From Pseudomonas eutrophicaquae (GTDB lineage: Bacteria; Pseudomonadota; Gammaproteobacteria; Pseudomonadales; Pseudomonadaceae): DNA of 64,000 bases. The position numbers and the translations under genes are program-made. The stretch spans positions 22,459-86,458 of the forward strand of contig NZ_JAMJEZ010000011.1 in NCBI RefSeq assembly GCF_023544715.1, read 5' to 3'. A model generated the notes under the pieces. It was not told the origin of the DNA. It saw nothing but the letters and a program-made list of their open reading frames with translations, and did not search any database. The first letter of the stretch is position 1. The number at the start of each line of letters is the position of its first letter. Shown here piece after piece: positions 52,211-64,000 of the stretch.

Positions 52211-53421
52211 CCGCGCACGGCCGCCTGCAGGCGCACGACCGGCTGCTCGCGCACCGGCGCGTTGAGCAGCGCCGCCAGCAGGCTGAGCAGGATGGCGATC
52301 TGCCAGACCAGGTCATAACTGCCGGTACGATCGAACATCCAGCCCCCCAGCCAGCCGCCGACAAACGAGCCCAGCTGGTGGAACAGGAACACCACACCGC
52401 CGAGCATCGACAGGTTACGCACGCCAAACAGTGTGGCCACCGTGCCGTTGGTCAGCGGCACGGTCGACAGCCACAAAAAGCCCATCGCCATGCCGAAGGC
52501 ATACGCCGACCACTCGCTGAGCGGGGCGTAGAAGAAGGCGGCGATCACCACCGCGCGGATCAGGTACAGCCCGACCAGCAGCCGCGGCTTGGGATAGCAG
52601 CCGCCCAGCCAGCCGGAGAGATAGGTGCCGAACACATTGAACAGCCCGACCAGCGCCAGCACCGTGGTACCGACCCCGGCAGCCAGCTGGCGATCGACCA
52701 GATAGGCCGGCAGGTGCACACCGATGAACACCACCTGAAAGCCGCAGACGAAGAATCCCAGCCCCAGCAGCCAGAAATCACGCTGCGCCAGCGCCTCGTG
52801 CAGCGCCGCTCCGGCGCCCTGTACCACCTCATCCGCTGCGGGCGCCGGGCGCTGCGCACCGCGCAGCAGCAGCGCCAGCGGCACCAGCAGGGCGATCAGC
52901 GCGGCCAGCACCAGCAGCGCCGCCGACCAGCCGAGCGTCGAGATCAGCCCAAGGCTGGCTGGCAGCATGATGAACTGGCCGAAGGAGCCCGCGGCAGCCG
53001 CCAGGCCCATCGCCATGCTGCGCCGCTCCACCGGCGCGGCCTGCCCGACCGCACCCAGCAGCACCGAGAACGAGGTGCCGGACAACCCGATGCCGATCAG
53101 CAGCCCGGCACTCAGCGACAACAAGCCCGGCGTGCCTGAAAAAGCCATCAGCAGCAGCCCCGCCACATACAAGAGCGCCCCGATCACCACTGTGCGCGCC
53201 ACGCCAAAGCGGTCGGCAAACGCACCGGTGAAGGGCTGTACCAGCCCCCAGATCAGGTTCTGCAGGGCAATCGCAAAGGCAAACACCTCGCGCCCCCAGC
53301 CAAACTCGCTGCTCATCGGCGGCAGGAACAGGCCGAAGCCATGCCGCACCCCCAGCGACAGGGCGAGGATCAGTGAACTGCCCAGCAGCATCCAGCCGCA
53401 GTGGCGCCATAGCGAATTCAT
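52207..53421 (-). CDS. MFS transporter (YcxA/MCT-like)
   Basis: A 404-residue, 12-helix major facilitator. Helix 1–2 region GVRHGFGLFLPPMSSEFGW and QNLIWGLVQPFTGAFADRFG carry the MFS loop motif; helix 5 has LIGIGLSGTSFSVLLGAVGQ. A central cytoplasmic loop contains RGAQRPAPAADE. The pattern resembles the YcxA / monocarboxylate-type subgroup, so an organic acid is a possible substrate; this is inference only. ATG 53421 (MNSLWRHCGWMLL) is chosen over the longer frame. It is followed by the 40-residue membrane ORF. Confidence 0.85.
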   Translation of the reverse strand: MNSLWRHCGWMLLGSSLILALSLGVRHGFGLFLPPMSSEFGWGREVFAFAIALQNLIWGLVQPFTGAFADRFGVARTVVIGALLYVAGLLLMAFSGTPGLLSLSAGLLIGIGLSGTSFSVLLGAVGQAAPVERRSMAMGLAAAAGSFGQFIMLPASLGLISTLGWSAALLVLAALIALLVPLALLLRGAQRPAPAADEVVQGAGAALHEALAQRDFWLLGLGFFVCGFQVVFIGVHLPAYLVDRQLAAGVGTTVLALVGLFNVFGTYLSGWLGGCYPKPRLLVGLYLIRAVVIAAFFYAPLSEWSAYAFGMAMGFLWLSTVPLTNGTVATLFGVRNLSMLGGVVFLFHQLGSFVGGWLGGWMFDRTGSYDLVWQIAILLSLLAALLNAPVREQPVVRLQAAVRG

Positions 53422-53542
53422 CGGCACGCTCCCCAATGCAAAGCGCGAGGATAGCACCCTCGCCCGCCCCTGCTCAGCCCAGCCCTGAGCTGCCCGGGCA
53501 TCGGTTAAACTCCAAGGCTCCATCGTCTGTCACGAGACCGCC

Positions 53543-54547
53543 ATGCCGATCCAACATGCCATCGTCCACCTGATCGACAAAAAGCCCGACGGCAACCCCG
53601 CCAGACTGCACCTGAGCACCCAGGCACTGCCGGCCAGCGAGACCATCGAGCACCTCTTGGCCGACCTCAATGACAGCTACAACGCCAAGCCCAACAAGGT
53701 CTGGGGCTATTTTCAAGCCGACACACAAAGCTACCCGCTGAGCAGCTGGCTGCAGCGCTATCTGGAGGATGGCGATTTTGTCGCCTTCAGCCAGGCCTGC
53801 GCCGAGCGCCTGACCACCCTGATGGATGCCTCCAACCTGTCGACCGGCGGCCATGTGCTGATCGCCCGTTACCAGCAGGGCATGAGCGATTTTCTGTGCA
53901 TCGCCCTGCTCCACCACAGCGAGGGCGTGACCGTCACCGAGCAGCTCGAACTGAGCAGCGCCCGGCATCTTGATCTGGGCCAATTACACCTCGCCGCGCG
54001 GATCAACCTCAGCGAGTGGCGCAACAACCCGGCCTCGCGGCAGTACCTCTCGCTGATCCGCGCCCGCCACGGCAAGAAGGTCGCCGACTACTTCCGCGAG
54101 TGCCTGGGCTGCAGCGAGGGCGTCGATGCGCCGAGCGAGACCCGCACCCTGCTCAAGGCCTTCAGCGACTACGTCGAAAGCGAGGATCTGGCCGAGGAGC
54201 AGGCCCGCGAGAAGACCCAGACCCTGGTGGACTACGCCAGCGATCAGGCCCGGCGCGGCGAGCCGATCGCGCTGGAAGAACTCTCCGAGCTGCTCGATGA
54301 GCAGCAGCCGCGGGCCTTCTTCGAGCATATCCGCCACAAGGATTACGGTCTGGCGCCGGAGATCCCGGCGGACAAGCGCACCCTCAACCAGTTCCGCCGT
54401 TTCACCGGGCGCGCGGAGGGGCTGTCGATCAGCTTCGAGGCGCACCTGCTGGGTTCGCAGATCGAATACGACGCCGAGCAGGATGCGCTGATCATCCGCA
54501 AACTGCCGGGCAAGCTGCGCGAACAACTGACCAAGGACCGCCATTGA
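53543..54547 (+). CDS. yejK: Nucleoid-associated protein YejK/NdpA
   Basis: A 334-residue protein of the YejK/NdpA (37-kDa nucleoid-associated) family, found bound to the nucleoid in E. coli. Typical segments: [71 protein letters not shown] and [12 protein letters not shown]. Its exact biochemical role is unknown. ATG 53543. It overlaps the PPK2-like gene by 4 nt (TTGA). Confidence 0.93.
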
Positions 54548-55407
54548 GCCCTCTGCCGGATGCCAGCGCGCCGGCCGCGAATGCCGCCCTGCTGCGTCTG
54601 CGCGATGAGTCGCTGGAGGCCTGCCTATGCCACCCAGCGGCGCCCTTCGCCCAGAATCCCAACCGCGATCTGGGCCTGAGCCACGACAGCGCCGCGGCGC
54701 AGCTGCAGGCGCTGCGGCCCTGGCTGATCGAGCAGCAGCATCTTTTGCGCATGCGCCGCCGCGAGGCGCTGCTGATCTGGCTGCAGGGACCGGACTGCGC
54801 CGGCAAGGATGGCGCCATCGAGCGACTGTGCGCCGGTTTCAGCCCGCTGGGGCTGGCGGTGCACAGCTTTGGCCGCCCCACCGTGGCGCAGTGTACGGCG
54901 CCCTTTCTCGCGCGCTACCGCCAGCGCCTGCCCGAGCCCGGCCAGCTGGGCCTGTTCAACCGCACCCCGTATGAAGGGGTAGCCAGCGACCTGTTCGATG
55001 GCTTTATTGACGCCGAGGCGCTGCCAGCACGCCTGATCCAGCTGGCCGACTTCGAGGATCAGCTGGCCGCTCACGGCATCCGGCTGCTCAAGGTCTACCT
55101 GCAGATTTCCCAGGCCGAGCAGCACGCGCGCCTGCGCAAGCGTCTGCTCGACCCGCGCAAGCACTGGAAGCTCTGCGCGGATGATCTGACCGCCCATCGC
55201 CAGTTCGCCGCACGCGAGGCGCACTGGGCCGCGCTGCTGCGCGCCAGCCATCGCCCAGAGGCACCCTGGTACATCCTGCCGGCCAATCACAAGTGGCTGC
55301 GCGATCTGCTGCTGGCCAGCCTGCTGGCCCGCGCGTTCGAGACGCTGCAGCAGACTTGGCCCACCCCCACGCCGCCCTTCACCCTGGAGGCGCTGGAGCG
55401 CGGCTGA
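54544..55407 (+). CDS. Divergent PPK2-family polyphosphate kinase-like protein
   Basis: A 287-residue protein of the PPK2 fold, most like the polyphosphate:nucleotide phosphotransferase group (TIGR03709). Walker A reads [27 protein letters not shown] corresponds to the usual [29 protein letters not shown] and [19 protein letters not shown] are well kept. However, the normally conserved DFLWRxH segment reads PFLARYRQ and the following VVRVH reads SDLFD. Two lid arginines thought to contact phosphate are therefore not evident. The start is TTG 54544 overlapping yejK; internal starts are possible. Confidence 0.82.
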
Positions 55408-55416
55408 GCCGGACGT

Positions 55417-55704
55417 TCAGCCCTCGCCCGCCATCCAGCCGGCGACCAGCTGCTCCTTGGCGGATTTACGCAGGCGCTTGATCGCCCACTCGCGCTGCAG
55501 GGCGGCGCGCTGACTGCCGCAGGCCTCGATATACACCAGCGCACAGGCCGGGCTGCTGCAAAAGAAGCGCGCACCACGCCCGCGCACATGCTGCTCAAAA
55601 CGCCGCCACGGATCATCGCTGATCCCGCAGTACAGCGCGCCATTGGCCGCCCGCACCAGATACACCCGCCAGATCCGCGGCCCCATCACGCGGGTGCGCT
55701 TCAT
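55417..55704 (-). CDS. GIY-YIG domain protein (UPF0213/YhbQ-like)
   Basis: A 95-residue single-domain GIY-YIG protein. The two-part signature is [20 protein letters not shown] (here VYL…YCG) and [15 protein letters not shown]. The catalytic Arg and the later Glu ([19 protein letters not shown]) are kept. YhbQ-like proteins are proposed nucleases; activity is unproven for most. ATG 55704 shares one base with the stop of the upstream glycosyltransferase-like gene. Confidence 0.88.
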
Positions 55705-56423
55705 CACCGGTCCCTGGCCCGCGAGCGTTGCTGCCAGCGCGCCAGATGCCTCACCGGGACGCCGCAGAGAAACCCCAGCGCCAGCAGGCGATGCAGCAGG
55801 GCGCGCCGCCACCAGCCGTCACGCTGCCAGCGGCGCGGATCAACCCGCAGCCCCTCGCTGACACAGGCCAGAGCCCCCTGCCGGCGCAGACCACGCACCA
55901 ACGGCACCTCCTCGAACAACGGCCAGGGCGCATGGCCGCCGGCAGCCCAGTACGCCTCGCGGGTGGCAAACAGACCCTGATCCCCGTAGGGCACCCCCAG
56001 CGGCAGCCGCACCCGCCAGTTGGTCAGCCGCACCAGCCAGCGGGCCTGCCAGGGCAATGGCCCGCTCAGGCGAAAGGCGAAATAGCCGCCCGGTGCCCCC
56101 TGCGCCAGCGCGGCCTGCAGGGCGGCAAAGGGCGCGCCGTACAGCTCGGCATCGGCGTGCAGAAACCACAGCCGCTCATGCTGCGCCGCCGCCGCACCGG
56201 CGCGCAGCTGCTGGCCGCGACAGGGTTCGGCCGGCAGCCACTCAGCCCCCTGCGCGTGGCACAGCGCCTGGCACTGCGCGCTGCGCGCGGCATCGACGAC
56301 GATGATCTGCAGCGGCTGCGCGCAGCGCTCGGCCAGCGTGTGCAGCTGCGCCAGCAGGCGAGCCAGCGGCGCCTCATCGCGGTAGCAGGGGATGATCACG
56401 CTGCACGCAGGCGTCGTACTCAC
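55704..56423 (-). CDS. Glycosyltransferase, rSAM/selenodomain-associated transferase 2 type (TIGR04283)
   Basis: A 239-residue GT2-fold protein. It begins [20 protein letters not shown] and has [36 protein letters not shown] (donor-site region), then [20 protein letters not shown] and a C-terminal [16 protein letters not shown]. These features match the TIGR04283 group, named for repeated co-occurrence with ArsS-like radical SAM proteins. The start is GTG at 56423 in a GTGA overlap with the TIGR04282-type gene. Donor and acceptor are unknown. Confidence 0.85.
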
Positions 56424-57109
56424 CGGCAGTGCTCCAGCAGCGGCAGCAGCTGCGCCCGTAGCGCACGGCGCGCGGGGCGCAGGTCTTCGGCCAGCGCCTG
56501 ATAGGCGGCGAGCAGATCAGCCGGCTCATCGACATCACGGCACAAGCCGACCCGGCGCACCTGCTGCCCCGCCGCCTCACACAGCGCCTGCAAGGCATCC
56601 CCCAGCGCCGGGGTGCTCCAGGGCAGCCCGGCCAGCGCCGGCCAGGGCTGGCGCGAGGCCATCAGCACCACGCCGCCGTCACAAGCCGGCACCAGCACGG
56701 TATCGACCTCGGTCAGCGCCGCGCGCACCTCGGCATACAGCGCCGGGGTCAGTGCTGGAATGTCGCTGCCGATGATCACCAGCACCCCGTGCCCTTGGGC
56801 GCGCAACTGCCGGTCCAGGGTGTTCAGCCGCTCGCCAAGATTGCCGCCGCCCTGCGCCTGACAGTGCGCGGCGGGGGCCTGCTGGCGCGCCCAGTCGGCA
56901 TCTTCGGCGCGGTCCGGGGCGATCACCTGCGGGCCGGGCCAGGCGGCCAGATCCTCCAACGCACAGGCCAGCAGCGCCTCGGCAATCGGCAGGGTGGCCT
57001 CTGGCCCGAGCCGGCGGGCCAGACGCTGCTTGCCATGCCCGAGGGCTGGGCGCTTGCAGACCAGCACCAGGGTCGGAGCAGCGGGCAGTGCATCAGGGGG
57101 CGTGGGCAT
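56420..57109 (-). CDS. Transferase 1, rSAM/selenodomain-associated type (TIGR04282, DUF2064)
   Basis: A 229-residue GT-A / nucleotidyltransferase-like protein of the TIGR04282 (DUF2064) group. Key parts: LVLVCKRPALGHGKQRLARRLG near the N-terminus, GVLVIIGSDIPALTPALY (the GSDxP loop) and VLVPACDGGVVLMASRQ (the DGG loop), ending with LCRDVDEPADLLAAYQAL. ATG 57109 is chosen; the upstream open frame into the intergenic region is not supported. It leads the leftward unit and faces the ArsS-like gene across 185 bp. Confidence 0.86.
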   Translation of the reverse strand: MPTPPDALPAAPTLVLVCKRPALGHGKQRLARRLGPEATLPIAEALLACALEDLAAWPGPQVIAPDRAEDADWARQQAPAAHCQAQGGGNLGERLNTLDRQLRAQGHGVLVIIGSDIPALTPALYAEVRAALTEVDTVLVPACDGGVVLMASRQPWPALAGLPWSTPALGDALQALCEAAGQQVRRVGLCRDVDEPADLLAAYQALAEDLRPARRALRAQLLPLLEHCR

Positions 57110-57137
57110 GGCAGACACTCGTGATGATGGATCCTCA

Positions 57138-57173
57138 AGGGGCTTGCCGGTGCTCCATTCAGGCACCGCCCCT
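57138..57173 (-). other. Bulged hairpin in the divergent spacer
   Basis: AGGGGC, a 5-nt bulge and GGTGC (57138–57153) pair with GCACC-GCCCCT (57163–57173), giving an 11-bp stem with a 9-nt loop. It lies in the likely leader of the leftward glycosyltransferase unit. No U-tract and no known riboswitch pattern is seen. Confidence 0.35.
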
Positions 57174-57294
57174 CGGCCGGCCGGCAGCATAGAGAGCCAA
57201 GCCGCGGCCCGGCAAGCACCGGGATGGCTGGGCGGATGCGACCAATGCCGGCAGAATGCCCAGGCCCCGCCCTCGCTCTGGAGCACCGCTGACC

Positions 57295-58260
57295 ATGTAT
57301 GACACCCTGCCGCTGCTCGATGCCCACGCTTTCCCCGCGCTGCAGCGCACGCCGCTCGACACCCTGCAGGTCAATCTGACCTACCAGTGCAACCAGCGCT
57401 GCCTGCACTGCCATGTCAACGCTGGCCCGACCCGTCAGGAGCGGCTCGACGATGAGAACCTGGCCTGCCTGTTCGAGGTCATCGAGCGGCTGCCGCTGCG
57501 CTGTCTGGACCTGACCGGCGGTGCGCCGGAGCTGCACCCGCGCTTTCGCGAGCTGGTGCGCCATGCCCGCCGCCAGGGCCTGCGGGTGATCGATCGCTGC
57601 AACCTGACCATCCTCAGCGAGCCCGGCCAGCAGGATCTGGGCGCCTTTCTCGCTGCCGAGGGCGTCGAGGTGGTCGCCTCGCTGCCCTGCTATAGCGCGG
57701 ACAATGTTGATCGCCAGCGCGGTGATGGAGTGTTCGCCCGCAGCATCGCAGGCCTGCGCCAGCTCAACGCGCTGGGCTATGGCCAGCCCGGCCGCGACCT
57801 GTCACTGAGCCTGGTCTACAACCCGCAAGGCCCACAGCTGCCACCGCCCCAGGGCCCGCTCGAGGCGGATTACCGGGCGCGGCTACAGGCAGATTTCGGC
57901 ATCGTCTTCACCCGGCTGCTGACCATTACCAACCAGCCGATCGCCCGCTTTGGCAGCACGCTGGTCAGCCGTGGCGAGCTGGCCAGCTACCTGCAACTGC
58001 TGCGGGACAACTTCCAGGCCAGCAACCTGGACAGCGTGATGTGCCGCTCGCTGGTCAGCGTCGATTGGCAGGGCTATCTGTATGACTGCGACTTCAACCA
58101 AATGCTCGGCCTCGGCCTGCCGCCGCTGATCGCCCGCCAGCGCCCGCACCTGCGCGACCTGCTGCACCAGTCGCTGGCGCAGCACCCGATCGCCACCCGC
58201 GAGCACTGTTACGCCTGCACCGCCGGACAAGGTTCGAGCTGCGGCGGCGCCCTTGCCTGA
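57295..58260 (+). CDS. ArsS-type radical SAM protein (TIGR04167, rSAM/selenodomain)
   Basis: A 321-residue radical SAM enzyme of the arsenosugar-biosynthesis ArsS family. The cluster motif is YQCNQRCLHCH (C32, C36, C39), followed by CLDLTGGAPELHP and VIDRCNLTILSEPGQQDL. The C-terminal SPASM-like part has VMCRSLVSVDWQGYLYDCDF and ends YACTAGQGSSCGGALA. In some relatives the cysteine of GSSC is selenocysteine (recall); here TGC encodes Cys. In cyanobacteria ArsS acts with ArsM on methylated arsenicals. No arsM is in this window. TGGAG lies 11 nt before ATG 57295. Confidence 0.9.
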   Translation: MYDTLPLLDAHAFPALQRTPLDTLQVNLTYQCNQRCLHCHVNAGPTRQERLDDENLACLFEVIERLPLRCLDLTGGAPELHPRFRELVRHARRQGLRVIDRCNLTILSEPGQQDLGAFLAAEGVEVVASLPCYSADNVDRQRGDGVFARSIAGLRQLNALGYGQPGRDLSLSLVYNPQGPQLPPPQGPLEADYRARLQADFGIVFTRLLTITNQPIARFGSTLVSRGELASYLQLLRDNFQASNLDSVMCRSLVSVDWQGYLYDCDFNQMLGLGLPPLIARQRPHLRDLLHQSLAQHPIATREHCYACTAGQGSSCGGALA

Positions 58261-58280
58261 TGCCTGACTCTGGAGTGCCG

Positions 58281-60464
58281 ATGTCCCTGCCCCGTCTTGC
58301 CCTGCTGCTGGTGCTCACCAGCCTGCTGGCCGCCTTCGTGCTGCTCGATCTGCACGCTTATCTGCACCTGGACACCCTCCAGCAGCAGCACCAGTACCTT
58401 GAGGCCCAGGTGAGCGCCCACCCCTGGCAGGCGGCGCTGCTGTACCTGCTGGGCTATGTGGCCGTCACGGCGCTGTCGATCCCCGGCGCCGCGCTGCTGA
58501 CCCTGCTGGGCGGTGCGCTGTTCGGCCTGCTCGGCGGCACGCTGCTGGTGTCGCTGGCCTCGACCCTCGGCGCGACCCTGGCGATGCTCGGCAGCCGCTA
58601 CCTGCTGCGCGGCGCCGTGCAGCGGCGCTTTGCCCAGCGCCTGGCCGCCATCGACCGTGGCATTGAGCGCGAGGGGCCGTTCTACCTGTTCGCCCTGCGG
58701 CTGGTGCCGCTGTTTCCGTTCGTGCTGATCAACCTGGCGATGGGCCTGACCCGCCTGCCGGCGCGCACCTTCTGGTGGGTCAGTCAGCTGGGCATGCTGC
58801 CGGGCACGCTGGTCTATGTGAACGCCGGGCGGGAGCTGGGGCGCCTGGACTCGCTGGAGGGCATCCTCTCGCCGGGGCTGCTCGGCGCCTTTGCCCTGCT
58901 CGGGCTGTTCCCGCTGCTGGCACGGCGTCTGCTGGCCTGGCTCAAGGCGCGCCGCGTGTACGCTGGCTGGACGCGCCCGCGGCGCTTCTCGCGCAACCTG
59001 GTGGTGATCGGTGCCGGGGCCGGTGGGCTGGTCAGCGCCTATGTCGCCGCTGCCGCCCAGGCGCGGGTCACGCTGATCGAGCGGGCCAAGATGGGCGGCG
59101 ACTGCCTGAACAGCGGCTGCGTGCCCTCCAAGGCACTGATTCAGGCCGCCGCACAGGCCCATGCCCTGCGTGAGGCGCAGGCGTTCGGGCTGAGCGAGGT
59201 GCAGGGGCGCGTCGATTTTGCCGCGGTGATGCAGCGGGTACGGGCGGTGATCCAGGCCATCGAGCCCCATGACTCGATCGAGCGCTACACCCGCCTGGGG
59301 GTGGAGGTGATTCAGGGTGAGGCGCGCATCACCTCGCCGTGGAGCGTGGAGGTCAACGGCCAGACCCTAACCACCCGCGCGATCATCATCGCCTGCGGGG
59401 CGCGCCCGCGCCTGCCAGAGATTCCGGGGCTGGCGGCGATGCAGCCGCTGACCTCGGACACCTTCTGGCAGCTGGATACACCGCCCGAGCGCCTGCTGGT
59501 GCTGGGCGGCGGGCCGATCGGCTGCGAGCTGGGGCAGGCCATGCAGCGCCTAGGGGTTCCGGTGACGCTCATCGAGCGCGGCGAGCGTCTGCTTAGCCGC
59601 GAGGATGCCGAGGCCAGCGCGGTGCTTGAAGCGCAGTGGCAACGCGAGGGCCTTGACCTGCGCCTGGCGCATCAGGCCGAGCGCTTCGAGCAACGCGGAG
59701 CGCAGCGTGTGCTGATCGCCCGCGATCTGCGCCGCGACGCTCTGGTGGAAATCCCCTTCGACCGGGTGCTGGTCGCGCTGGGCCGCGAGGCCCGCCTGGA
59801 AGGCTATGGCGTCGAGACCCTGCAGCTGGCGGTGCGGGCCGACCAGACCCTGGAGACCGACGCCTGCCTTGCCACCCGCTACCCGAATATCTTTGCCGTC
59901 GGCGATGTGACCAGCGCCCTGCAGCTCACCCACGGCGCAGCCCATCAGGCCTGGTACGCCAGCATCAACGCACTGTTTGGCGACCTGCGCCGCTTCAAGG
60001 TCGATGAGCGGGTGATCCCGCGGGTGACCTTCACCGATCCGCCGATTGCCCGAGTCGGCCTCAGCGAGGCCGAGGCCCGCGCGCAGGGGCTCTCCTTCGA
60101 GGTGACCCGTTATGCGCTGGCCGATCTTGACCGCGCGCTGATCGAGGGCCGCACCGAGGGCTTCGTCAAGATCCTCACCGCCGCCGGGCGCGACCGCCTG
60201 CTCGGGGTGACGCTGGTCGGGGCGCGCGCCGACGAGCTGATCGCCGTCTACGCCCTGGCCATGCGCCACAACCTGGGCCTGGGCCAGCTGCTCGCCACCG
60301 TCCACAGCTACCCGACATTTGCCGAGTCGGCCAAATACGCCGCTGGGCAGTGGCGCCGGGCACGGATTTCACCGCGGGCGCTACGCCTGCTGGCAGCCTT
60401 CCAGCGCTGGCGGCGCCAAGGCGGTGCGGAGCCGGCAGCGCCGCGCGATGAGTCTGCACCGTGA
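58281..60464 (+). CDS. VTT (TVP38/TMEM64) membrane domain fused to a pyridine nucleotide-disulphide reductase
   Basis: A 727-residue fusion. Residues about 1–225 form a VTT/SNARE-associated membrane domain with ALSIPGAALLTLLGGALFG and RLVPLFPFVLINLAMGLTRL. Residues about 238–700 form a flavin disulphide reductase: FAD loop VVIGAGAGGLVSAY, redox-active C275/C280 in GGDCLNSGCVPSKALI, NAD loop VLGGGPIGCELGQAM, FAVGDVTSALQLTH, and the His-Glu dyad in VHSYPTFAESAK. There is no HMA domain and no C-terminal vicinal Cys pair, so it is not a typical MerA. ATG 58281 with TGGAG upstream is preferred to ATG 58260, which overlaps the ArsS-like stop. Confidence 0.9.
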   Translation: MSLPRLALLLVLTSLLAAFVLLDLHAYLHLDTLQQQHQYLEAQVSAHPWQAALLYLLGYVAVTALSIPGAALLTLLGGALFGLLGGTLLVSLASTLGATLAMLGSRYLLRGAVQRRFAQRLAAIDRGIEREGPFYLFALRLVPLFPFVLINLAMGLTRLPARTFWWVSQLGMLPGTLVYVNAGRELGRLDSLEGILSPGLLGAFALLGLFPLLARRLLAWLKARRVYAGWTRPRRFSRNLVVIGAGAGGLVSAYVAAAAQARVTLIERAKMGGDCLNSGCVPSKALIQAAAQAHALREAQAFGLSEVQGRVDFAAVMQRVRAVIQAIEPHDSIERYTRLGVEVIQGEARITSPWSVEVNGQTLTTRAIIIACGARPRLPEIPGLAAMQPLTSDTFWQLDTPPERLLVLGGGPIGCELGQAMQRLGVPVTLIERGERLLSREDAEASAVLEAQWQREGLDLRLAHQAERFEQRGAQRVLIARDLRRDALVEIPFDRVLVALGREARLEGYGVETLQLAVRADQTLETDACLATRYPNIFAVGDVTSALQLTHGAAHQAWYASINALFGDLRRFKVDERVIPRVTFTDPPIARVGLSEAEARAQGLSFEVTRYALADLDRALIEGRTEGFVKILTAAGRDRLLGVTLVGARADELIAVYALAMRHNLGLGQLLATVHSYPTFAESAKYAAGQWRRARISPRALRLLAAFQRWRRQGGAEPAAPRDESAP

Positions 60465-61546
60465 GCGCCGACTTCGACCTGCTGCTGGCCGGCGCCGGGC
60501 ACAGCCATCTGGGCGTGCTGCGCCGCTGGGCCCGGGGCGCCCGACCGGCCGGGCGCATTGCGCTGGTCTGTGGCGAGCCGCAGGTCTGGTACTCGGGGAT
60601 GTTGCCGGGCCTGCTGGCCGGGCGCTATCGACCCGAGGATTGCCGGATCGAGCTGGCGGCGCTGTGCCGCGCGGCGCAGGTGGAGTGGATCGCCCAGCCG
60701 GTCCGCGCCCTCGATGCCGAACGCTCCGCGCTGACCCTCGCCGACGGCAGCACGCTGACCGGGCGCTGGCTGTCGCTGAATGTCGGCGCCCAGCCGGCCA
60801 GCCTCCCCCAGCAGGGGACGGCCCTGCAGGTGCTGCCGGTCAAGCCCTTCGCGACTTTTCTGCACGGCTGGGCGGACTGGCAGCGCGATCCCCAGCCGCT
60901 GGCGATTCTCGGCGGCGGGGCCGCGGGTGTGGAGCTGGCTCTGGCGCTGGCCGCACAGGTGCCGTCCCTGACGCTGTTTGCCGGCCAGCGGCTGCTGGGC
61001 AGCCATCCAGCGGCGCTGCGCCGGCGGGCGCTGGCGCACTTGCAGCGGGCCGGTGTGACGGTGCGCGAAGCGTGCCGCATCGAGGCGATCACCGATGATG
61101 CGCTGTACGCCGATCGGCAGCCGCTCTGGCGCGGGACGCGCTTGCTGCTGGCCAGCGGCCCGGCAGCGCTGCCCTGGCTGCGCGAGTCAAACCTGGCCTG
61201 CGATGCCGCAGGCTTTGTCGCCCTCACCGCCACCCTGCAAAGCCGCTCTCACCCGCAGATTTTTGCCAGCGGCGACTGCGCCAGCCTGCCGGGGGCGCGG
61301 CGCAACGGCGTGCATGCAGTGCGTCAGGGCCCGGTGCTGGCCGAGAATCTGGCCCGCGCCCTGCAGGGCGAACCGCTGCGCCCCTACACGCCGCAGCGCC
61401 GCACCCTGGCCCTGCTCGCCGATGGCCGGGGCGGCGCGCTATATGCCTGGGGCAACCTGTGCGGCGAGGCGCGGCTGGCCGGGCGCCTCAAGGACTGGCT
61501 GGACCGGCGCTTCATCCGCCAGCATCGACCGGCCGAACATCTATAA
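60461..61546 (+). CDS. FAD/NAD(P)-dependent oxidoreductase of the SelD-associated type (TIGR03169-like)
   Basis: A 361-residue type-II NADH-dehydrogenase-like flavoprotein. It begins FDLLLAGAGHSHLGVLRRWA, with VWYSGMLPGLLAGRY, NAD loop LAILGGGAAGVELALALAAQ and IFASGDCASLPGARRNGVHA. This resembles the domain (TIGR03169) that occurs alone or fused to the N-terminus of selenide water dikinase SelD. Here it is stand-alone. The start is GTG at 60461, in a GTGA overlap with the fusion protein gene. Substrate is unknown; a redox step on sulphur, selenium or quinone is plausible. Confidence 0.85.
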   Translation: MSADFDLLLAGAGHSHLGVLRRWARGARPAGRIALVCGEPQVWYSGMLPGLLAGRYRPEDCRIELAALCRAAQVEWIAQPVRALDAERSALTLADGSTLTGRWLSLNVGAQPASLPQQGTALQVLPVKPFATFLHGWADWQRDPQPLAILGGGAAGVELALALAAQVPSLTLFAGQRLLGSHPAALRRRALAHLQRAGVTVREACRIEAITDDALYADRQPLWRGTRLLLASGPAALPWLRESNLACDAAGFVALTATLQSRSHPQIFASGDCASLPGARRNGVHAVRQGPVLAENLARALQGEPLRPYTPQRRTLALLADGRGGALYAWGNLCGEARLAGRLKDWLDRRFIRQHRPAEHL

Positions 61547-61646
61547 GGCCAGTGCACGGCATACGCGCTACGCTGCAAGGGCAGCGACATGGCGCCCCAA
61601 CGCCGGGCGCTGTCCGCTGCACTCTCTGGCCAGCAGGAGAATCACC

Positions 61647-62042
61647 ATGTCCATGCCCATGACCGAACTGCTGCAAACCCTGCTCAGCGCCGAGCGAGCG
61701 GGCGCACTGGTAGCCCGCGACAGCCTGCGCCAGTGCGATGACCCAAGCCTTGTGCCGCTCTTGCAGCAGATCCTCGCTGGGGAAAGCGAGAGCTGCCGGC
61801 GCCTGATGACCTGCCTGCGGCATCTGGGGCTTGAGGCCAACCGTGAGGTCGGCGCCTTTCATGCCCAGGCGATGGCCATCGAGGATCTGGCGCAGCGGCT
61901 GGCCTTCATCGATCGCGGCCAGCGCTGGGTGATCCGCCGCCTGCAGGAGGCGCTGCCAACCTGCCGCGATCCGCTGCTGCAGGAGGAGCTACAGGCAGTG
62001 CTGCGCCTGCATGAGGAAAACAGCGCCGCCAGCGCCCGTTAG
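61647..62042 (+). CDS. Small all-helical protein, DUF6306/ferritin-like
   Basis: A 131-residue protein. MTELLQTLLSAERAGALVAR starts a helical bundle, and QILAGESESCRRLMTCLRHLG, FIDRGQRWVIRRLQEALPTC and LQEELQAVLRLHEENSA follow. The pattern resembles DUF6306, a four-helix ferritin-like family (by recall). Glu and His residues on helices (E-R-A, E-S-E, L-H-E) could bind metal, but this is not certain. AGGAGA lies 6 nt before ATG 61647. It follows the FAD protein by 100 bp and its stop overlaps the convergent gabD stop by 4 nt. Confidence 0.7.
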   Translation: MSMPMTELLQTLLSAERAGALVARDSLRQCDDPSLVPLLQQILAGESESCRRLMTCLRHLGLEANREVGAFHAQAMAIEDLAQRLAFIDRGQRWVIRRLQEALPTCRDPLLQEELQAVLRLHEENSAASAR

Positions 62043-63496
62043 CTGCCGATGCCCAGACACAGGTACTTGAGTTCGAGGTAGTCGTCGATGCCGTAGCGGG
62101 AACCCTCGCGCCCGACACCCGACTCCTTGACGCCGCCAAAGGGGGCGACTTCGGTGGAGATGATCCCCTCATTGACGCCGACCATGCCGTACTCCAGCGC
62201 CTCACTGACCCGCCAGGCTCGTCCCAGGTCGCGGGTATAAAGGTAGGCAGCCAGCCCGTACTCGGTATCGTTGGCGAGATGAATCGCCTCGGCCTCGTCA
62301 CTAAAGCGGAAGATCGGCGCCAGCGGCCCGAAGGTTTCCTCGCGGGCCACCTGCATGTCGGCGGTGACCTCCGCCAGCACGGTCGGCTCGAAGAACTGCC
62401 CGCCCAGCGCGTGGGGTTTGCCGCCGGTCAAGAGGCGCGCGCCCTTGGCCAACGCATCGTCGATATGCGCCTGCACTTTGCTCAGTGCCCGCGGGCTGAT
62501 CAGTGGCCCCTGCTGGGCGCCCTCGACATCAAATGGCGCCACCTTGAGCGCCGCCACCGCCTGGGCCAGACGCTGAATGAACGCCTCGTAGATCCCGTCC
62601 TGCACCAGGAAGCGGTTGGTGCAGACGCAGGTCTGCCCGCTGTTGCGGTACTTGGAGGCCAGCGCCCCGGCGATTGCCGCGTCCAGGTCAGCATCCTCGA
62701 AGACAATGAACGGCGCATTGCCGCCCAGCTCCATGCTGACCTTCTTCATGGTCGGCGCACACTGCGCCATCAGCTGCTTGCCGACCGCAGTCGAGCCGGT
62801 GAATGACAGCTTGCGCACCTGTGAACTGGCGGTCAGCACCGCACCGATGGCCGGGGCGTCACGGCCGGTGACGATGTTCAGCACCCCGGCCGGCACCCCG
62901 GCGCGCTGCGCCAGTTCGGCCAGCGCCAAGGCGGATAGCGGCGTTTCTGCCGCCGGCTTGACCACCACGGTGCAGCCAGCCGCCAGCGCCGGGGCAACCT
63001 TGCGGGTGATCATGGCATTGGGGAAATTCCACGGGGTAATGGCCGCCACAACGCCAATCGGCTGACGCAGCACCAACAGGCGCCGCCCCGGCTTGTCGTG
63101 GGGGATCACATCCCCGTAGGTGCGCTTGGCCTCTTCGGCGAACCACTCGATGAAGCTTGCGCCATAGGCAATCTCGCCACGGCTTTCGGCCAGCGGCTTG
63201 CCCTGCTCGGCGCTGAGCAGCTGCGCCAGATCCTCCTGATGGGCCATGATCAGCGCAAACCAGCTGCGCAGGATAGCCGAGCGCTCGCGAGCGGTACGGC
63301 TGCGCCAGTCGGCCAGTGCCGCCTCGGCCGCAGCGATGGCGCGGGTGGTCTCGGCGGCGCCCAGATCCGCCACCTGAGCCAGCAACCGCTGACGGGCCGG
63401 ATCGATCACCGGGAAGGTTCCGGCATGGTCCGCATCGACCCACTGGCCGGCGATGAAGGCCTGGGTACGCAGCAGGGTGCTATCGGTCAGTTGCAT
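62039..63496 (-). CDS. gabD: NAD(P)-dependent succinate-semialdehyde dehydrogenase
   Basis: An aldehyde dehydrogenase oxidising succinate semialdehyde to succinate in GABA catabolism. 485 residues, standard GabD length. Motifs: ITPWNFPNAMITRKVAPALA (nucleotide site), FTGSTAVGKQLM, the catalytic Glu in SMELGGNAPFIVFEDAD, the catalytic Cys in RNSGQTCVCTNRF, and the C-terminal GGVKESGVGREGSRYGIDDY. The partner transaminase gabT is not in the window. ATG 63496 with AGGA upstream. Read-through from the right is blocked by a terminator at about 63640. Other short-chain semialdehydes are possible substrates. Confidence 0.92.
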   Translation of the reverse strand: MQLTDSTLLRTQAFIAGQWVDADHAGTFPVIDPARQRLLAQVADLGAAETTRAIAAAEAALADWRSRTARERSAILRSWFALIMAHQEDLAQLLSAEQGKPLAESRGEIAYGASFIEWFAEEAKRTYGDVIPHDKPGRRLLVLRQPIGVVAAITPWNFPNAMITRKVAPALAAGCTVVVKPAAETPLSALALAELAQRAGVPAGVLNIVTGRDAPAIGAVLTASSQVRKLSFTGSTAVGKQLMAQCAPTMKKVSMELGGNAPFIVFEDADLDAAIAGALASKYRNSGQTCVCTNRFLVQDGIYEAFIQRLAQAVAALKVAPFDVEGAQQGPLISPRALSKVQAHIDDALAKGARLLTGGKPHALGGQFFEPTVLAEVTADMQVAREETFGPLAPIFRFSDEAEAIHLANDTEYGLAAYLYTRDLGRAWRVSEALEYGMVGVNEGIISTEVAPFGGVKESGVGREGSRYGIDDYLELKYLCLGIGS

Positions 63497-63615
63497 GGCA
63501 AGATCCTCGAACGGAGCGCGCAGCGGTGGCGCCGAAAAAGTGCGCCTTAGTATTGCAGGATGCCACGCGGTTCGGGCCAGTGCTGTTGGCCTGCGTCAGC
63601 GCTGCTTGCCGGGCG

Positions 63616-63658
63616 AAAAAGAAAAACCCCTGAAATTCTCTAGGAAAATCAGGGGTTT
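63616..63658 (-). terminator. Rho-independent terminator upstream of gabD
   Basis: AAACCCCTGA (63624–63633) and TCAGGGGTTT (63649–63658) form a perfect 10-bp stem with a 15-nt A/T-rich loop. On the minus strand the stem is followed by a T-rich tract (TTTTT-C-TTTTT including stem bases). It would stop a leftward transcript coming from a gene to the right, none of which I can identify. Confidence 0.75.
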
Positions 63659-63887
63659 AGCTCTGTTAAAATGGGCCGGGGTCGTTTGAACAAACACCTA
63701 CAGGTCTCGCCAATCAAACCTTTGCGGGTTCTATGGGCCTTGGGGATACACCAAGGGATACAGAATCACCGCTGCTGCCCTATTTTTGAGTGTTTTTCGA
63801 CCAAGTGCCGTACGTTTCCTGATTGCGCAGACTTTAGCATTTCGCCGGGGCTTGGGCACCGGGCTTCCTCAGTCGAGGCAAGACCGC
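63659..63887. other. Gene-poor, lower-G+C stretch; no supported gene
   Basis: Between the terminator and the IS-like sequence no open frame resembles a known protein on either strand. Codon use in the short frames is unlike the rest of the window and base composition is more even. A CCTTGG–CCAAGG inverted repeat and two copies of the GGATACA-like sequence (near 63742 and 63757) are present. It looks like a degenerate remnant of a mobile element. Confidence 0.5.
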
Positions 63888-64000
63888 AGATTGTGTCCCA
63901 GGAAGTGGTGTAACTGAGCGCCGTGAACCGCCCCGGGAACTCCGGAGGCTCTCTGGTTTGAGTCATGCCGCCAGGGCTGACTCGTCGAGTTGTCGATAAT
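63888..64000. mobile_element. Probable insertion-sequence terminus or termini at the window edge
   Basis: The sequence from about 63924, starting TGAACCGCCCCGGG and continuing with CCGGAGGCTC, resembles left ends of IS3-family elements as I remember them. Immediately left, GTGTCCCAGGAAGTGGTGTAA (63894–63913, quoted in part: GGAAGTGGTGTAA) resembles ends of IS256-type elements. No transposase is encoded before base 64000, so the call rests on end similarity recalled from memory. Confidence 0.3.

Follow-up and report, generated by a model that had tools for sequence, protein, structure and literature searches.

A pseudomonad ArsS gene cluster with the probable later steps of a bacterial arsenosugar pathway

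We have analysed a gene cluster at positions 55417-62042 of a 64,000-nucleotide stretch of DNA from Pseudomonas eutrophicaquae (the whole stretch is called the window here). The preliminary description placed seven genes there in two divergent units. All seven reading frames were confirmed in this place and arrangement, and their families were assigned by profile search. The features are as follows.

55417-55812, minus strand: GIY-YIG protein (PF01541 domain, residues 48-119)
55704-56423, minus strand: TIGR04283-type family 2 glycosyltransferase, 239 aa, proposed arsenoribosyl transferase (TIGR04283, 178.2 bits, cut-off 182; PF00535)
56420-57109, minus strand: TIGR04282/DUF2064 nucleotidyltransferase-like protein, 229 aa (TIGR04282, 118.1 bits, cut-off 134; PF09837)
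57110-57294, no strand: intergenic region between the divergent units, the gap between two starts and presumed site of both promoters
57295-58260, plus strand: ArsS radical SAM enzyme, 321 aa (TIGR04167, 434.5 bits, cut-off 300; DUF3641)
58260-60464, plus strand: VTT membrane domain and FAD/pyridine-nucleotide disulphide reductase in one frame, 734 aa (PF09335, PF07992, PF02852)
60461-61546, plus strand: TIGR03169-type flavoprotein without a SelD domain, 361 aa (291.5 bits, cut-off 310)
61647-62042, plus strand: DUF6306 protein (PF19825)

Because the PF01541 domain spans only residues 48-119, a shorter start is likely for the GIY-YIG frame; the start codon of the TIGR04282 frame was our choice. 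Overlaps of 1-4 bases between frames (56420/56423, 58260/58260 and 60461/60464), which amount to 4 bases both between the TIGR04282 and TIGR04283 genes and between the TIGR03169 gene and the VTT/reductase fusion gene, suggest that translation may be coupled. A consensus promoter search found no sigma-70-like promoter at 55300-62100, including the divergent intergenic gap, and no Rfam match was found at 53000-64000.

The window ArsS scored well above the curated TIGR04167 cut-off. Its C36, C39, C132, C250, C265, C305, C308 and C316 occur in all 164 alignment rows and C32 and C102 in 163, so that both the radical SAM CxxxCxxC motif (C32, C36, C39) and the C-terminal C305, C308 and C316 are present. 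Cys316 seems to stand where selenoprotein relatives have Sec (GxxU). No ArsL model, if the profile library includes one, appeared among the families listed for this protein (25 of 29). The glycosyltransferase-type protein matched a single family, TIGR04283, and retains the invariant positions of a 54-member alignment, including H89, D91, G147-D148-Q149, E171, R197 and W199; its AlphaFold model has a pLDDT of 95.9, and no phage copies were found at E<=1e-15. For its neighbour, TIGR04282 was the best family match, and it keeps the positions that never vary in a 51-member alignment (K27, R29, G114, D116, D144-G145-G146, D192 and D194). The TIGR04282 profile matches the uncharacterised structure 3cgx and structures of the CofC/FbiD/3-phosphoglycerate guanylyltransferase type. 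Thus, of the two GT-like enzymes proposed earlier, this one rather resembles nucleotidyltransferases, while a glycosylated end product, also proposed, is plausible.

Co-occurrence was surveyed in 203 genomes of the window's class, 103 with and 100 without ArsS, and in related genomes of the same family. ArsS was accompanied by TIGR04283 in 103/103 and by TIGR04282 in 101/103 of the ArsS genomes, and within the family a strong TIGR04283 match was present in 49/49 ArsS genomes vs 0/20 without ArsS (the first-listed 20 of 150). These results support ArsS, TIGR04282 and TIGR04283 as one module, and for these three families the earlier statement that they co-occur is borne out. The VTT/reductase pair is often linked to this module: each part was seen close to ArsS at 69 of the 80 named loci, with 0 matches in a small control of six unrelated stretches. 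The tally of fused and separate forms is rough, as an alignment indel can make a fusion look separate. A TIGR03169-type flavoprotein lies near ArsS in 51/80 named loci vs 2/95 class loci, and a fragment of this type (175.5 bits) adjoins TIGR04282, TIGR04283 and an MTAP-family gene on a Burkholderia plasmid. The earlier gene set also included DUF6306 and GIY-YIG proteins, and we found no support for either as a module part: DUF6306 was near ArsS in 0/80 named loci and present in 2/203 class genomes, one of them without ArsS, and GIY-YIG was found in 0/80 named loci, though with an 82-residue query it could be missed. Separately, a protein weakly like sodium/solute symporters lies near ArsS in 35/80 named loci, and a Marinobacter plasmid carries a 61% identical, symporter-annotated protein next to a substitute radical SAM gene.

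We consider it probable that the locus encodes the later steps of a pathway that leads to an arsenosugar (5-deoxy-5-dimethylarsinoyl-riboside) through ArsM, ArsS, a phosphorylase, TIGR04282 and TIGR04283. From the gene content, motifs, co-occurrence and linkage demonstrated here, we infer each catalytic step in this organism, the step order, the donor and the acceptor. The ArsM-like protein, whose gene is on a different contig of this genome, would produce dimethylarsenite, and ArsS, described as adenosylating arsenic (PMC12159101), would move the 5'-deoxyadenosyl group of SAM onto the arsenic. The base would then be removed by an MTAP/MTIP-family nucleoside phosphorylase, giving alpha-arsenoribose-1-phosphate; alpha-ribose-1-phosphate is described as the yield of nucleoside phosphorylases (PMC7226091). 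TIGR04282 would activate the arsenoribose-1-phosphate to NDP-arsenoribose, from which TIGR04283 would hand arsenoribose to an acceptor, for example glycerol or phosphatidylglycerol. Other GT2 enzymes are inverting, and if TIGR04283 inverts like them, the product would be the beta-riboside that occurs in nature; the title of PMC6656958 calls an AsSug a beta-ribofuranoside. The disulphide reductase, anchored in the membrane, and the TIGR03169 flavoprotein may maintain arsenic or thiols in the reduced state, perhaps at the membrane. Counting against this pathway, the window TIGR04282, TIGR04283 and TIGR03169 proteins and the ArsM-like protein of the genome all score below curated cut-offs.

Among relatives, an MTAP-family gene lies beside or inside the module in several unlike arrangements. 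It adjoins the module in 5 of the 80 named loci (L154, L156, L158, L161 and L162), lies about 6.4 kb away in L150, and is beside the module in L050 of the 95 class loci and in the ArsS-less genome G139. On a Burkholderia glumae plasmid it sits with TIGR04283 and TIGR04282, about 6 kb from ArsS. On megaplasmid p1 of Cupriavidus sp. KK10 (L266), a nearly unannotated record whose frames were called in this analysis, nine genes follow one another on a single strand, overlapping or separated by small gaps, in the order PiT-like, ArsM-like, peroxidase-related, ArsS, reductase, VTT, TIGR04283, TIGR04282 and MTAP. An MTAP-family gene was listed in 97/103 genomes with vs 64/100 without ArsS (p=7e-8, uncorrected for kinship or genome size), and it lay within 10 kb of ArsS in just 1/103 ArsS genomes of the class. 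The sole MTAP-family gene found in the window's own genome is a thioinosine phosphorylase, MTIP (397 bits, cut-off 223), unlinked on contig C43. A phosphorylase about 7 kb from ArsS in Pseudomonas psychrophila (L137) groups with this MTIP and was set aside.

It has been described that 5'-deoxyadenosine inhibits radical SAM enzymes and requires disposal (PMC8102628), and a linked MTAP might accordingly just clear this compound after abortive radical SAM turnover, taking no part in the pathway. We regard this as rather unlikely, considering that the B. glumae gene sits with TIGR04283 and TIGR04282 at a distance from ArsS, and that an ArsS adenosylating arsenic would use the group. A second alternative, which we also regard as rather unlikely, concerns TIGR04282. 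The characterised relatives matched by its profile act, by name, on phosphorylated acids and not on sugar-1-phosphates, being guanylyltransferases, so the enzyme could activate the acceptor side (a phospho-acid or glycerol phosphate) while the ribosyl donor arises otherwise. However, a GT2 enzyme would need an activated sugar, for which no other gene of the set is an obvious supplier, and TIGR04282 directly adjoins MTAP in L154, L161 and L266.

The preliminary description noted that arsM and selD were missing near the cluster and considered that methylated arsenic could be made elsewhere. Whole-genome searches showed that this absence is an effect of the window, because the same genome encodes an ArsM-like protein (the sole match at E<=1e-20) on contig C33, which agrees with that suggestion, and selD (the sole match at E<=1e-40) on contig C56. 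The ArsM-like protein gives 184 bits to NF008823 (cut-off 263) and 92.5 bits to NF038099 (cut-off 400). Its C24, C25, C52, C145, C345 and C346 occur in 36/36 alignment rows and C195 in 35, the rows having been picked for similarity, and proteins with 66-86% identity to it are encoded at most about 6.5 kb from ArsS at 12/80 named loci.

In the class sample, 26 of the 103 ArsS genomes had no ArsM by either model (NF008823, NF038099), and the Synechococcus elongatus control was positive for ArsS, TIGR04283 and TIGR04282 and negative for both ArsM models. Our own ArsM profile, run on the loci of 23 of these 26 genomes (G042, G090 and G153 have no long locus), gave one marginal match (E 0.004). No methyltransferase was seen among the Pfam families listed (25 of 73) for 81 of the 93 open frames within about 1.8 kb of ArsS at these 23 loci; the other 12 frames were very long or were TIGR04282, TIGR04283 or MTAP genes. 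These genomes, together with the symporter-like proteins, would fit a dispensable ArsM: methylated arsenic would be taken up, or ArsS would accept another arsenical, and the system would scavenge or detoxify environmental DMA instead of ending a de novo pathway. We consider this quite unlikely, since ArsM-like matches are strongly associated with ArsS (77/103 vs 16/100 genomes), the window's own genome has one, and some of the 26 genomes are incomplete (e.g. G090, 76%). Selenium, offered earlier as a substrate, was rejected as very improbable even as a metabolic or selenoprotein-linked function, because ArsS and selD are independent in the 203 genomes (24/103 vs 19/100, Fisher p=0.49) and the window ArsS has Cys316, although selD is present in the own genome and in 24/26 genomes with a strong TIGR03169 match and the TIGR04167 family is described as including a predicted selenoprotein (PMC13188914).

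The arsenosugar reading is nevertheless weakened in its simple form by the ArsM-less genomes and the rarity of phosphorylase linkage in the class, as well as by the unlinked MTIP and the phosphorylated acids used by named TIGR04282 relatives. We put forward only tentatively, as a possible but less than probable whole, that the window is one example of a wider system: a complete arsenoriboside pathway via arsenoribose-1-phosphate and NDP-arsenoribose (ArsM, ArsS, MTAP-family phosphorylase, TIGR04282 and TIGR04283) may exist in about half of the sampled class genomes, coupled to the membrane disulphide reductase, that it may work on imported methylated arsenic in about a quarter of carriers, and that a different, unnamed radical SAM protein may replace ArsS in a few lineages.

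The cluster had been called the best candidate for a new system. However, ArsS, TIGR04282 and TIGR04283 are already listed together by NCBI under the name arsenosugar biosynthesis, so the cluster is of a known kind. On the one hand, it is similar to the ArsM/ArsS arsenosugar pathway of Synechocystis (Xue 2019 and Cheng 2021, as cited in PMC8552651 and PMC12159101) in its ArsS-type radical SAM enzyme, the ArsM-like protein of the genome and the NCBI arsenosugar names of its TIGR04282 and TIGR04283 partners. On the other hand, it belongs to a pseudomonad, arsM is unlinked, the ArsS unit contains the fused VTT-reductase and a stand-alone TIGR03169 protein, and the below-cut-off TIGR04282 and TIGR04283 represent a divergent subtype. 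The Cupriavidus p1 cluster shares ArsS, reductase, VTT, TIGR04283 and TIGR04282 with the window, but holds the ArsM-like, peroxidase-related, PiT-like transporter and MTAP genes in the same run and has VTT and reductase as separate genes. The arsinothricin cluster arsQML of Burkholderia gladioli also combines radical SAM C-As bond formation with ArsM, but as described in PMC8552651 it has three genes, without TIGR04282 or TIGR04283, and the reaction predicted for its ArsL is transfer of an aminocarboxypropyl group. NucPNP of nucleocidin offers a loose precedent for the MTAP step proposed here: this purine nucleoside phosphorylase is described as essential to a natural product that contains a heteroatom, though with fluorine instead of arsenic and with other partners (PMC8694150). 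The literature searched, whose scope lay outside the primary ArsS papers, assigned no enzymes to the steps from dimethylarsinoyl-adenosine to the arsenosugar, and our searches found no pathway paper beyond those cited.

In summary, the cluster resembles the second half of a pathway, widespread in bacteria, from methylated arsenic to an arsenic-containing sugar, and its relatives suggest enzymes for the missing steps. The comparative data give one candidate per step and point to cultivable bacteria. If this is true, arsenosugar chemistry would be common among heterotrophic bacteria instead of being chiefly an algal and cyanobacterial trait, and this would matter for arsenic cycling in soil and sea.

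We have assigned the cluster to the NCBI-named arsenosugar set, of which it is a divergent pseudomonad form. The nearest named loci indicate a pseudomonad host, in the class Gammaproteobacteria. Frame calling and family scans confirmed the reading frames and families proposed in the preliminary description, and the genes are arranged as follows:

Leftward unit: TIGR04282 and TIGR04283 genes, with a 4-base overlap, then a GIY-YIG frame
Rightward unit: ArsS (the TIGR04167 radical SAM enzyme), a VTT/disulphide-reductase fusion (734 residues) and a TIGR03169 flavoprotein, with 1- and 4-base overlaps
DUF6306: 100 bases past the TIGR03169 gene, with its own AGGAG

The window proteins scored 178.2 bits for TIGR04283 (cut-off 182), 118.1 for TIGR04282 (cut-off 134) and 291.5 for TIGR03169 (cut-off 310). 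All three fall just under their cut-offs, the first two because the window pair is a divergent subtype. This pair showed 49-63% identity to most homologues at the named Pseudomonas and Stutzerimonas loci, merely 26-39% to a few homologues at L108, L117, L136, L141 and L142, and, in the class sample, 21-32% for TIGR04282 (26 rows) and 26-42% for TIGR04283 (28 rows). Both proteins retain the invariant residues of their alignments (51 and 54 rows for TIGR04282 and TIGR04283, respectively), and ArsS retains the cysteines conserved across 164 aligned rows. The reductase sequence contains a GGDCLNSGC stretch, which we take to be a redox dithiol. A gabD-like gene (62039-63496 in the window) adjoins the cluster, and homologues of it occur no further than 9 kb from ArsS at 17 of the 80 best of 490 named loci (at L159 with only 31% identity, over part of the protein); this neighbour perhaps marks the ancestral site of the cluster.

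The co-occurrence of ArsS, TIGR04282 and TIGR04283, expected from the preliminary description, was borne out in 203 genomes of the class, where they were found in 103, 110 and 116 genomes. All 103 ArsS genomes carried TIGR04283 and 101 carried TIGR04282 (Fisher p<1e-43 each, without phylogenetic correction). ArsM-like matches (93 genomes, 40 above the cut-off) occurred in 77/103 genomes with ArsS versus 16/100 without, and strong TIGR03169 matches (at least 250 bits; 26 genomes) in 18/103 versus 8/100 (p=0.058). Within the family, 49 of 199 genomes carried ArsS, as did 8 of the 9 listed genomes of the genus. TIGR04283 was strong in all 49, though often away from ArsS, and in none of 20 ArsS-less genomes of the family tested (top match 95 bits). 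The suggested selenium link is not supported, since selD (43 class genomes) occurred in 24/103 genomes with ArsS versus 19/100 without (p=0.49). DUF6306 likewise has no support as a cluster part, being present in 2/203 class genomes, one of them without ArsS.

Around ArsS in the 80 best of 490 named loci, we found the VTT domain and the reductase (69 each), TIGR03169 (51), TIGR04283 (43), TIGR04282 (40), DUF3047 (36), a weakly sodium/solute symporter-like protein (35), a protein with no family match, which we read as phosphoesterase-like (35), ArsM-like proteins (12) and the MTAP family (7). The window's YejK, PPK2, GIY-YIG and DUF6306 were found in none of these 80. The 95 class loci contained TIGR04283 in at least 61, TIGR04282 in at least 45, VTT in at least 28, ArsM-like in at least 27, the reductase in at least 26, TIGR03169 in at least 2 and MTAP in at least 1; these counts are lower bounds because the queries were few and some loci are cut off by the end of a contig. 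Of the 83 loci bearing both VTT and reductase, 60 have the two fused and others have them separate, which suggests joint action. As far as our searches reach, this membrane reductase unit is conserved and has no description in the literature searched. A fatty-acid-hydroxylase-like protein lies near ArsS at L183:1179-2051 and 20 other class loci (at least 21), often beside the VTT protein; that at L189 is weakly like the ornithine lipid hydroxylase OlsE, a hint of a lipid-linked product.

On the one hand, arsM and selD are absent from the cluster, as first described. On the other hand, our whole-genome search (2.55 Mb, 57 contigs, 99.85% complete) found selD on contig C56 and, on contig C33, an ArsM-like protein (346 aa with our choice of start; 184 bits to NF008823, cut-off 263), encoded amid dapA, purC and other chromosomal genes, as named from our reading of the translations. 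At 12 of the 80 best of 490 named loci (L104, L105, L108, L117, L125, L129, L131, L156, L158, L162, L165 and L167), a gene no more than about 6.5 kb from ArsS codes for a protein with 66-86% identity to the C33 protein, which argues that the latter is probably the arsenosugar pathway's own enzyme, relocated. Two models found no ArsM in 26 of the 103 ArsS class genomes, and near ArsS in 23 of these 26 the 25 families displayed, out of 73, included no methyltransferase. Their hosts may take up methylated arsenic or rely on a different substrate, and it is mainly because of these genomes that we do not claim a closed pathway.

Radical SAM adenosylation of arsenic by ArsS is described in PMC12159101, PMC7226091 gives an alpha-1-phosphate as the product of phosphorolysis, and the title of PMC6656958 names an arsenosugar as a beta-riboside. 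The TIGR04282 profile matches CofC-type nucleotidyltransferases and 3cgx, a solved but uncharacterised relative; considering this likeness, NDP-arsenoribose would be the simplest donor for TIGR04283. GT2 enzymes are generally inverting, and TIGR04283 is GT2-like by family match. In the proposed mechanism, ArsS would transfer the adenosyl group of SAM to arsenic, which the reductase may hold trivalent, and MTAP-family phosphorolysis would release the alpha-1-phosphate of arsenoribose. TIGR04282 would then form NDP-arsenoribose for use by TIGR04283, which, if inverting, would yield the beta-riboside.

MTAP (TIGR01694) adjoins the module in several unlike arrangements, and two further MTAP-family genes lie apart from ArsS:

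L156, L158 (two Massilia): MTAP upstream of ArsS
L050 (genome G108): downstream of ArsS
L154, L161 (Cupriavidus and Polaromonas): after TIGR04282
L162 (Paraperlucidibaca): divergent from ArsS
Burkholderia glumae plasmid: adjoining TIGR04283
Genome G139: next to genes for a substitute radical SAM protein, ArsM-like and TIGR04282
L150: MTAP-family gene about 6.4 kb from ArsS
Genome G179: MTAP-family gene adjoining an ArsM-like gene rather than ArsS

On one strand of Cupriavidus plasmid p1, genes that overlap or have small gaps encode, in this order, a PiT-like transporter (57% identity to a PHO4-family protein), ArsM-like, a peroxidase-related protein, ArsS, reductase, VTT, TIGR04283, TIGR04282 and MTAP. 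In the phosphorylase tree (47 rows), 8 of 9 linked proteins fell in an 11-row group that includes 3 unlinked ones, contains a long branch flagged by the tool (L269) and is split from the other 36 rows by a branch with full support; one clade (98/96) comprises five of the linked proteins. The ninth linked protein, L137, clusters with the thioinosine phosphorylase (MTIP) of the window's genome. Among class genomes, the MTAP family is commoner with ArsS (97/103) than without (64/100), being widespread regardless, and is encoded no more than 10 kb from ArsS in 1/103. The window's genome has only an unlinked gene of the MTIP type, and therefore base removal there would require a deamination first, or else a different enzyme.

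A different radical SAM protein occurs in three ArsS-less genomes (L043:4298-5263, L253:7519-8445 and L251:448-1377), with 54-65% mutual identity. Its top NCBIfam match is far under the cut-off (two of three scanned), and hhalign aligned it with ArsS over just 146 core columns (probability 96). Its gene directly adjoins an ArsM-like gene in all three, with TIGR04283, TIGR04282 and VTT-reductase also near at L043, and TIGR04282 and MTAP at L253; this protein may replace ArsS. The same gene lies in two pieces, unannotated, on Marinobacter adhaerens plasmid pHP-187 (L264:8001-8892), adjoined by a sodium:solute symporter with 61% identity to a protein encoded next to ArsS in many Pseudomonas. Together with a DUF547 gene, a further radical SAM protein (L266:13413-14885, L263:12117-13514), with weak similarity to TrsS and tetraether lipid synthase, accompanies the arsenosugar genes in Cupriavidus and on the B. 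glumae plasmid, and might point to arsenolipids. ArsS was also found on 52 plasmid records, 47 of them from Burkholderia, which makes transfer of the module from host to host probable.

The locus itself is of moderate interest, and the assembled pathway is a testable hypothesis which, if true, would supply the steps downstream of ArsS.
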